Shown here: positions 6,671-49,616 of the stretch, piece by piece | How the letters are laid out: each line of letters starts with the position of its first letter | Numbering within the stretch: the stretch's first letter is position 1 | From: Rhypophila decipiens | Lineage: Eukaryota; Ascomycota; Sordariomycetes; Sordariales; Naviculisporaceae | Direction: 5' to 3' | Length of the DNA: 64,000 nt | Assembly (NCBI GenBank): GCA_033297075.1 | Contig: MU858050.1 | Location: 248,001 to 312,000, forward strand | The notes under the pieces: model-generated | The model's input: only the letters and a program-made list of their open reading frames with translations | Told to the model about the DNA's origin: nothing | The model's database searches: none | Program-made: the position numbers and the translations under genes

Positions 6671-7593
6671 CTACATCACGCTGCATTTGGAATCCTCGCG
6701 CTCTTTCCTGACGGATAGAGCAACGCGTGCGGCCTCGGTAAAGGCCTCGTTAACACCCCTGTTGCGCATGGCGGAGCATTCGAGATACCGCAGCGCATTG
6801 ATCCGACGGGCGACTTCCAGCCCTTGATCATAATTGATCATGGGCTTCTTCTCTCGTGGATTCCCGTTTTCGTTTGCACCATCCTCGTCTTCGTCCGATG
6901 CCTCGCGGAGATCGCACTTCAACGCCACGAGCACGAGCTTGACCCCAGGGCAGTTGTCAGCAATCTCACCAACCCATTTGCTTTCGACGTTTTCGAGCGA
7001 GTCTTTGCTGTCGACGGAATAGCAGAGCATGATTAAATCAGTATCATCTGGATCAGTTGTTAGCTTTCTATGCCGCGGGATTCTGAGCTGTGGTGCTACG
7101 TGACTTACCATACGAGAGACTCCGTAACCGATCGAATTCTTCTTGGCCAGCTGTATCCCAGAGTGACAATTCGATGTGGACATTGTCGACAAAAATATCT
7201 GCATATTTGCAAAGTCAGTCCGCGGTTCTATCGCATCACAAGAGAACGCGGAACGCGAAAAATGGCAAAAACGGACCGTGGACATAATTTTCGAAGACGG
7301 TTGGCTCGTAAACGGTCGGGAAGTACCTGGTCCATAATGAGCGAATGAGCAGCACCCCAAGCCTGATTCCAACTCACCCTCTCGTGAAGACGTTCAGGAG
7401 CGAAGTCTTTCCACAGGCACCATCTCCTCTAAAAGTTTGAAACCCCGTGTCAGCGTTGTTCCCTGTGGACAGAGATACCACGGCGCTCGGCCACCAATGA
7501 ATCCCGACTCAAAAGTGTGCTTGGGCGGCAAGTAACTCACAGCAAGACAAGCTTGCGTTGGACAGTTTTCGATCCCCCGAGACCACACGGCAT
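6671..7593 (-). CDS. rho3: Rho-family small GTPase, Rho3 type
   Basis: This is a Ras-superfamily switch that, in its family, directs exocytosis and actin-based polarised growth at the hyphal tip. Five exons: 7593-7541, 7428-7378, 7326-7277, 7198-7109 and 7047-6671. Joined they give 206 aa, the usual Rho3 length. Visible motifs are the P-loop GDGACGKTS (from residue 19), the effector stretch [32 protein letters not shown], and the guanine-binding motifs LKCD and ECSAM. The C terminus CSVM is a CAAX box, and the terminal Met favours farnesylation. An acidic insert ([13 protein letters not shown]) sits after LKCDLRE, where Rho proteins carry the variable insert helix. The introns are short and the exons tiny (50-53 nt). 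The start is the ATG directly before PCG, which gives the normal N terminus. Identity is secure; the Rho3 versus Rho4 choice rests on the effector and C-terminal wording. Confidence 0.93.
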
Positions 7594-47082: not shown

Positions 47083-47883
47083 TCAAGCAGAAAACCGGCC
47101 GTGGGATTCGGCGAAGAGGCGGCGTTGCTCCTCTTCGAGGGCTATTCGCTGCAGACGCCGCCGGACCCAGTCCTCCTCGGTCACCTCCTCCACATCCTCC
47201 ATCTCTTCGTCTTGGTCGTCGTCGTCATTATCATCGTCGTCCTCGTCGTCGTCCTCGCTGTCGTCCTCGCCATCGTCCTCGCGCTCCTCGTCCTCCTCAC
47301 CTTCTTCTTCGGCAATCAACTCCAAGAAATTCAGGTCCCTGACAACCTGAGTACGTGTATGGGGATCGGCAAGACCGTCGGCAATGACGCCAACCGCGCC
47401 ACCCCAGAAATCACGATACTCAACCGCACCCGCCCAGAGATTTCGGTACGACCGCTCGCTATTCTAGAACTCGCGGTCGGCCATCTCCGGGTCGACCTCC
47501 TCGTTGTAGTCATACCCGTCCGCGAGGAAGCGGGGCCTAACACGGGTGAGGGTTAGCAGGCCCGAGACAGCCATAGTGCACCACTCACGGTCACCATTGC
47601 TAGCAGCCATGAGTTCGGTCATGAGGAGGTCGGCTAGCTCAGTGGACCCAGGAGCAAAAACATTATGGCCAGGGCCATAGCCGGCAAAGTAGCCCGTGTC
47701 TCTGTTGCTCGGGTCGGGAGCGGAAAAGGTTGTCGGGGCCCAGATTGCGTCGTCGTTCGCCTCGTTATTCTCGTCGTCCTCCTCCTCGTCGTATTCGTCG
47801 TAGTCGTCGGCCTGGACCCAAGGTGGCTCGCCCGGCATCCGATCGTCGGTCTGGTTGACCCAGGTGAATAGAGCCTGCGACAT
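47083..47883 (-). CDS. Acidic orphan protein gene with one in-frame TAG
   Basis: One frame runs from ATG 47883 to TGA at 47083, broken only by TAG at 47466-47464. Both halves have strong codon bias. The first (139 aa) starts MSQALFTWVNQTDDRMPG. It is acidic (DDYDEYDEEEDDEN) and contains GPGHNVFAPGSTELADLLMTELMAASNGDREWCTMAV. The second has RSYRNLWAGAVEYRDFWGGAV and DPHTRTQVVRDLNFLELI. A long Asp/Glu tract follows, then a basic helix WVRRRLQRIALEEEQRRLF. No domain is recognised; acidic tracts suggest nuclear or chaperone-like behaviour but that is a guess. Alternatives are a 57-nt intron (47515-47459, GTATGA...ATAG, poor branch site), which removes the TAG in frame, a nonsense mutation, or mRNA recoding (see findings). 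A 52-nt GTGAGT...TTAG segment just upstream also looks like an intron but would break the frame. Confidence 0.6.
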
Positions 47884-49616
47884 GGCTGGTGACTGTGCGT
47901 GTTAGCGATTGAAATGCCCCACTCCATCCGATACAAGATGCGGCCGTAATCATTCGTTGGATTCCCAGTTGACGAGGCGGCCGATGGTTGATCATTGATC
48001 TAACGCCACGAAGAAAGAGAGAGGAGCGGCATATTCGAAGATGCCAGCTCTCCAGAAGTGATTGGTCTTCTGTTTCCTCGAACCAAAGGCCGAACTCTAA
48101 AGGAGGATGGATCGTTCGGTACGCCGTGGGGGCCTTCAACCATTCGGGGCTACAGGGGTAAACCAAAGGGCAGAAGACGACCTTTGACCGCCATGACTCT
48201 TCTGCTAGCACTCCTACCATGATTTCCAGATTGCGGCAGATGGATTCCGGTGGAGAGCCCATCCAGACAACTTCCCTCCATCGTGGTAGGATATATTTCC
48301 CTTTCGAGCTACAAAGACAATCGGCCTCGTGGGTTTAGAGGTAATGGCTAGCTTGGAAATGGAGAGTCTGTCCATCTAGAATCAGGAACATATGGATCAA
48401 TGTTCAAACTCTGTTCGACACGGTAGACGGCCTTTGAGGGTACGGCATTTGAAGGGAAGTGATGGGGAGAGGTGATGCTTTGTTTCGAGCATAAGCTGGT
48501 AAGGTACTGTTTGTTTCCCATCAGGAGAATACTCACTTGGCTTCGATTTGGTGTTTCTATTTCACACATTTGTTAGCCATTGACCCCATAAATGAACGAG
48601 ATCGATAATGAATATCTCATAATACGGGGCTCAAGGGCAAGGCTAGTCCATGTATGTGTTGATACATCCCGAACATGTATCAGTAGTTGCCGAAGCATGA
48701 GAGGAATGCTATAGACAGAAGTGTAGGTATGAAGCGAAGGTATAACTTACAGTTCGTACGCAGAAATATCGACCAACGGCTTTGGCAGTGTGCTTCAAGT
48801 TGGGTGAGTTGTTAGGACTGGCAGATAAACACAACATGTTTGCTTGTTGACAGAATATGGTCGACATCTATTGTACAGCGAAGAATGGGAAAAGAGTATG
48901 GTCGATATGTTACAAAGTAATGATAGCTTACAGAGCTTGTGGCGGGAGTTTCGGTTGACTTGCGACGACATGTGTGATGTTGTTGGGCTGGGGAAGAAAA
49001 GAAATTCCGAGCTCCCTCCGATAGGTATTTATAGCTCCCAAAACCACCGAATAGCTTCACAGTTAAGTGGGACTGGCAGGCGGTCCAGAACACCGTGCTC
49101 AAAGAAGCCCGCCAGCTGCCGAACAAGCTCACCGACGACGTTGGAAGATCGGATCGATGATCTACTGGGCCGTATGACTCTTCTCTGCTCCAAAAATTCA
49201 CTGGCAATGGCACTGGCCCTGTAGGCATCAGCCCAAGCTCATTTTGGTAAGGGAAGGAACCGGCCCTTAGGTATGTCGTGCCTTCCTTTCTTCTGTAATC
49301 AGTTGTCATCTGTTCCATTTAGTGGAGCAGCAGGCTACTTCGTCAACTTCTGCTAAGAATAGGAAGGGGCAGGTCACAAGACAGCGCTACGAGTCCTTTC
49401 GTGGAATCAAAGGAGATCACAGCTGATAGTCTCCTCCATAGAACATTCCACGGTAATCAGTCCAGCTCGGCCTTCTTGATTTGGGCCTCGGACTGTCACA
49501 CGCATCTTAACCTGCAAGCTCAAGGCAAATGTGCTGCCTAGTGTTAACCAAAAAAAAACCGCCAAGTGTGACTGCAAAAAGGGGTATCTCATTGGTGAAG
49601 GGCATCATCCATCCAC
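47884..49616. other. Upstream region of acidic gene, 3' flank of SPP gene
   Basis: About 1.7 kb. No conserved frame or RNA gene is seen. Confidence 0.5.

Follow-up and report, generated by a model that had tools for sequence, protein, structure and literature searches.

Can a gene whose frame is broken by a single stop codon still give rise to a protein that runs to the end of that frame? This question is raised by a locus in Rhypophila decipiens. The window, i.e., the 64,000-nucleotide stretch of DNA analysed here, comes from a genome of 45.7 Mb and contains on its minus strand a frame of 266 codons (47883-47083) with one internal stop, the TAG at 47466-47464, which is codon 140. An earlier note had described the gene as one open frame except for this TAG, and translation of the frame bears this out. 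Upstream of the stop lies an ATG-to-TAG stretch of 139 codons (47883-47467), and downstream of it an acidic C-terminal half (47463-47083) that ends with a TGA at 47085-47083. We consider the TAG a candidate premature-stop-correction site for A-to-I editing (UAG to UGG), with the A at 47465 as the proposed edited base. This is the best reading of the locus and a reasonably probable one, its main rival being that 57 nt around the stop form a real or facultative intron. The recoding put forward in the earlier note is partly supported, by the frame, by a hairpin around the stop, by the coding character of the 57-nt segment, by the conservation of the downstream half in two relatives, and by a kinase with an in-frame TAG at a conserved Trp and DUF726 (Ame1-type) proteins in the same genome; it is weakened by the rival intron, which appears in both annotated orthologues.

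The protein is an acidic orphan, and judged by sequence its relatives have so far been found only in the genus Rhypophila. About 5.8 billion proteins were searched by a method that requires shared five-residue words and similar length, and only two relatives came up, P0001 (V8F06_003996) and P0002 (V8F33_001105), with 96% and 89% identity to the window protein, respectively. Both are annotated Rhypophila proteins (Sordariales, Naviculisporaceae), so that the genera on which the earlier note had drawn, Fusarium and Neurospora, were slightly off. A repeat with another region of an orthologue gave, among 249 candidates, the query and its fellow orthologue and no others. The genome contains no paralogue of the 139-residue first part, the search for one giving a single weak match (E 0.13). 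Neither half of the protein matches a Pfam family over the cut-off, the acidic part giving weak matches only. The AlphaFold model of the orthologue pair has a mean pLDDT of 49, which is too low for a fold search; helices are predicted with low confidence in its second half, and the junction of the segment missing from the orthologues falls between two low-confidence helices.

The two orthologues follow the first stretch of the window protein up to codon 123. Both then read RFLADG directly followed by ERSYRN, and lack exactly 19 window codons, YDYNEEVDPEMADREF*NS, where the asterisk marks the stop. By spliced alignment the gap lies at 47515-47459 on the minus strand; these 57 nt begin with GTATGA and end with AATAG, have GT-AG ends and leave a phase 2 junction at which GG joined to C gives a Gly codon. 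Beyond the gap the acidic half is conserved, the sequence below 47458 being kept in both P0001 and P0002. The earlier note had asked whether the orthologues have Trp, Gln or nothing at the stop, and the alignment shows that the codon is missing from both as part of the 19-codon gap. It had further held that orthologues ending at this stop would count against editing, and both orthologues continue past it. Since both carry the downstream half, members of this gene family bypass the stop.

The missing codons might be taken to prove an intron or an insertion. However, PUK1 and 69 other genes of Fusarium graminearum were given false introns by automated annotation at UAGs which editing turns into UGG, according to the part of the study available to us (PMC4817773). 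With this documented, and with the segment being coding-like, that argument was dropped; the 57 nt may be either a pseudo-intron or a real or facultative intron. A second stretch of the gene also resembles an intron. The 52 nt at 47588-47537 (minus strand; GTGAGT...GCTAAC...TTAG) have a strong consensus, but their removal would shift the frame and they are protein-coding in both orthologues, and they were rejected as a true intron. Alternative splicing of these 52 nt, with the frameshift it would entail, is possible. The 5' extension of P0001 matches 47893-48536 on the minus strand, upstream of the ATG, only via gaps of 497 nt and 41 nt, and reflects either an intron in the 5'UTR or a poor gene model.

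The composition of the 57-nt segment was judged by a coding score that compares a codon model, built from eight coding regions of the window, with a dinucleotide model of introns. In the gene's own frame the segment scores 10.7 nats in favour of coding, compared to at most 3.0 for 18 window introns in all three frames, the same introns having also trained the intron model. Only about 2% of 231 coding windows exceed the score of the segment. When the intron model was instead built from 14 introns, the segment scored 10.1 and 17 held-out introns at most 3.7. A score based on synonymous codon choice alone, and therefore blind to the acidic amino acids, gives 2.79 for the segment compared to at most 1.35 for 54 intron frames, which is also higher than for 87% of the target gene's own windows. 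Of the 18 sense codons in the segment, 16 end with G or C. The segment is thus coding-like and does not look like the introns of this genome.

The 14 training introns were taken from 22 pattern introns in the window after leaving out the 52-nt intron of the target gene, the intron at 7108-7048, which was placed among the Rho3 introns, and six that were overlapping or doubtful. As they had been selected for CTRAY, they were left out of the count of branch sites. The 17 control introns comprise eight from kinase exon pairs, five kinase introns whose ends were set by eye and four from the Rho3-type GTPase gene at 6674-7593 on the minus strand, where they were placed by orthologues. There were 17 kinase exon pairs, six of which yielded no intron and three of which gave poor fits and were left out (L062, L073, and the second L069), so that eight were kept. 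CTRAY is found in 15 of the 17 control introns and CTNAY in 16, the Rho3 intron at 7377-7327 having CTCAT rather than CTRAY. When it comes to the segment, there is no CTNAY in its last 50 nt, and the earlier note was right that a 57-nt intron here would have a poor branch site. The segment thus shares with introns its GT-AG ends and its exact coincidence with the gap in the orthologues, but lacks their branch site and their non-coding composition. A scan that looked for stops with coding-like sequence on either side yielded 15 (eight TGA, seven TAG, and no TAA), the target TAG not being among them, which counts against editing; some hits were antisense or in overlapping frames, and the scan was judged uninformative.

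The RNA around the stop can form a hairpin in which the 5' arm CGACCGC (47479-47473, minus strand) pairs perfectly with the 3' arm GCGGTCG (47455-47449), and complementarity confirms the earlier claim of a perfect 7-bp stem with the TAG among the 17 nt between its arms. In the predicted fold, three further pairs (47470-47468 with 47460-47458) form an inner helix that closes an apical loop of seven nucleotides, CUAGAAU (47467-47461), in which the U of the stop is at position 2 and the A at position 3. The same loop was obtained with flanks of 15, 30, 50, 75, 100, 150, and 250 nt, and the pair 47476-47452 has a probability of at least 0.99 with flanks of 30, 100, and 200 nt. The A of the UAG is thus in a stable loop, the 61-nt fold having an MFE of -23.0 kcal/mol. 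In the tRNA anticodon loop, which also has seven nucleotides, U33 is at position 2 and A34 at position 3, and the geometry of the target loop fits that of an ADAT substrate. The hairpin also straddles the putative 3' splice site, the 5' arm belonging to the segment, the 3' arm to the next exon and the splice-site AG to the inner stem.

How often such a structure arises was assessed on the TAGs of the window, of which there are 1125 on both strands, and on codon shuffles of the target frame. A perfect stem of at least 7 bp with a loop of at most 20 nt surrounds 13 of the 1125 TAGs, and it was found in 21 of 2000 shuffles. The loop criteria were chosen when the fold was already known, and the following figures from 61-nt folds of the window TAGs are therefore descriptive: 365 of the 1125 are in some hairpin loop, seven are in a 7-nt loop with the A at position 3, five are in a hairpin with an MFE of -23 kcal/mol or lower, and one, the target, combines the anticodon-like loop with this stability. 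Equally descriptive, 1000 codon shuffles gave 374 hairpin loops, four 7-nt loops with the A at position 3, 25 hairpins with an MFE of -23 or lower, and none with both properties.

Editing sites in Fusarium are favoured by hairpin loops and by a U at -1 (PMC4817773), and the preferred neighbours are C or U at -2, U at -1, A or G at +1, G at +2, and A or G at both +3 and +4 (PMC9600606), as far as the accessible text of these papers goes. The earlier note had stated that the target fits all of the preferences, and this proved to be partly so. The C, U, G, and A at -2, -1, +1, and +3 agree, those at -1 and +1 being forced by the UAG itself, while the A at +2 and the U at +4 are disfavoured, giving four of six. 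The anticodon-like loop and the agreeing bases are among the reasons for taking the TAG as a putative premature-stop-correction site.

A real intron, spliced mainly constitutively in spite of weak signals, would make the TAG intronic, the hairpin a product of chance and the protein 247 residues long without the segment. This is unlikely, although it deserves to be taken seriously, as two Rhypophila gene models omit precisely these 57 nt with GT-AG ends and a phase 2 Gly codon, the donor GTATGA and the acceptor AATAG are acceptable by eye, and eight of the 17 control introns fall between 51 and 58 nt. The ends and a length divisible by three are also possible for a real intron and to that extent speak against editing, as does the fact that the annotated orthologues splice the segment out and belong to a family whose JGI genomes had RNA-seq. 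For the JGI-annotated genomes of Naviculisporaceae such data were indeed made, according to the available part of the report (PMC12734299), which also lists dung as the source of several Rhypophila strains. Strain PSN293 is reported to produce perithecia when cultured, and PSN637 is listed as homothallic. Against constitutive splicing stand the coding-like composition, which exceeds that of all 17 independent introns, the codon choice, which exceeds that of all 54 intron frames, the missing CTNAY branch site, and a stable, anticodon-like hairpin that spans the supposed 3' splice site. Moreover, the introns of 41 and 497 nt in the mapped 5' part of the P0001 model are odd and suggest that the model was an ab initio prediction.

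A facultative, exitron-like intron that also contains an editing site would reconcile the gene models with the hairpin. Vegetative RNA would then be spliced or truncated, while sexual RNA would retain and edit the segment, and the hairpin, as it spans the 3' splice site, could set the choice between splicing and editing. FgBUD14 shows UAG editing as well as alternative splicing of the intron that contains the site, according to the available text (PMC11156358), and the arms and the splice AG are distributed here in a way that suits such a choice. The lack of a CTNAY branch site in the segment counts against this combination too, and we regard it as quite improbable. It is more improbable still that the TAG is a nonsense mutation (CAG to TAG, RIP-like), a sequencing error, a readthrough site or simply the end of the gene. 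A single change, CAG to TAG, could have produced the stop, and this is the one thing that speaks for this group of explanations. The orthologues skip the same segment and keep the downstream half, which makes a gene end or a recent nonsense mutation unlikely and suggests that the stop is old and bypassed. The GC content, which is 0.51 in the 2 kb around the target and alike in the rest of the window, also counts against this group. As for readthrough, UAG followed by AAU is to our knowledge not among the known stop-codon readthrough motifs.

If the TAG is a stop-correction site, as we prefer to read it, the unedited and unspliced mRNA would give a protein of 139 residues without the acidic tail. 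In sexual tissue Tad2-Tad3 and the activator Ame1 would take the hairpin as a mimic of an anticodon arm and deaminate the A at 47465, turning UAG into UIG, which would be read as UGG (Trp). The edited mRNA would then give a protein of 266 residues that includes the 19 residues of the segment as well as the acidic C-terminal half. We infer that the mature mRNA would keep the segment as exon, that the A would be edited, that editing would be restricted to the sexual stage and that the longer protein would be of benefit. A more elaborate proposal is that the hairpin acts as a three-way switch by which the 57 nt are spliced out, retained as a stop (139 residues) or retained and edited to Trp (266 residues), yielding stage-specific forms of the acidic protein with Tad2-Tad3-Ame1 as the editor; this seems improbable as it stands.

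The genome has candidates for the enzymes that such a mechanism would need. It has been reported, in the parts of the papers available to us, that Tad2-Tad3 edits A34 after U33 in tRNA and that it edits mRNA together with Ame1 in Sordariomycetes (PMC11169179, PMC11087585), and that the residue pair MV500-501 is essential for Ame1 in editing, the published assay using laboratory yeast and E. coli as hosts (PMC11087585). The DUF726 family, to which Ame1 belongs, is found over the cut-off in three genes (L010:2179 on G000:C158, L011, and L012). In an alignment one of these proteins has MV at the position of RN and LD in its two paralogues, which agrees with the pair reported for Ame1 of Sordariomycetes, and a later E-x-R pair in the same protein fits only if shifted by one residue. 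The deaminase family PF00383 has 11 matches in the genome, assigned at the level of the family, so that Tad2 and Tad3 are not told apart.

Other stops in the genome were also considered. The genome has at least 138 matches to kinase domains, with 122 of 232 candidates scored, and at least 22 of these matches have in-frame stops, at least 12 of them with a TAG. Inspection by eye covered the 12 with TAG and not the other 10, whose stops are TAA or TGA, and the TAG is in an intron-like insert in seven, at the edge of the match in four and inside an uninterrupted domain in one. A CDK-like kinase (L032) has two TAGs in an intron-like insert. The one in an uninterrupted domain is a CBK1/NDR-like kinase (G000:C1:639276-639479, plus strand; L057/L081) that reads ...YDGRCD*WSIGVILYECL..., and its TAG takes the place of the first Trp in DWWS, a motif we take to be kinase subdomain IX. 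At this position Trp is found in the best solved relatives, CBK1, STK38, and ROCK1 (CDWWS), and Leu in ULK1, aligned with a shorter piece. PUK1 is edited in kinase subdomain IX, according to the available part of the report (PMC4817773). We infer that this kinase would be the PUK1 orthologue, and its TAG is likely, judged by sequence, to be a conserved editing site. The TAG of this control kinase is predicted in a 4-nt loop that is not anticodon-like, which speaks against editing at the target. So does the result for SPO22 and RID, edited genes in Fusarium according to the available parts of two reports (PMC4817773, PMC11156358): the SPO22 (PF08631) and DNA-methylase (PF00145) domains, from families with edited Fusarium members, have no stop in their matched parts in this genome.

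If the reading is right, the target adds a stop-correction editing site to Rhypophila, and no paper in the literature searched mentions this genus together with RNA editing; for Naviculisporaceae and editing, no title on RNA editing was among the matches listed. Both public gene models of the orphan may then carry a false intron, which is a known annotation error, and the coding score combined with the branch site offers a sequence-only test for finding further false introns over stops. With its unusually clean loop, and with a hairpin that overlaps the putative 3' splice site, the target is also a good test case for whether mRNA hairpins are recognised by Tad2-Tad3-Ame1 as mimics of anticodon arms.

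Premature-stop-correction sites are already known, and the target is a probable new member of this group. As in PUK1 (FGRRES_01058), the in-frame UAG, which would be changed to UGG, would be hidden by the annotation in a small false intron; PUK1, however, is a pseudokinase with a tandem UAG UAG and proven changes in cDNA, while the target is an acidic orphan with a single UAG, known from DNA alone. CHE1 of Fusarium resembles the target in having a single in-frame UAG in a hairpin loop, and according to the available text it has a short form of 145 and a full form of 310 amino acids, while some of its orthologues have a truncated annotation or a small intron wrongly predicted across the edited site (PMC11169179). 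CHE1 differs from the target in that it has C2H2 zinc fingers and is edited in hyphae, while neither half of the target protein has a domain assignment. FgBUD14 likewise has a UAG in a segment annotated as an intron, and in the text at hand both editing and splicing have been shown for it (PMC11156358), while at the target the combination is a proposal. The tRNA anticodon arm, as the substrate of Tad2-Tad3 (ADAT2/3), shares with the target a loop of seven nucleotides whose second is U and third A; its stem has 5 bp, whereas the target has a stem of 7 bp, a 2x2 internal loop and a further 3 bp, set in an mRNA.
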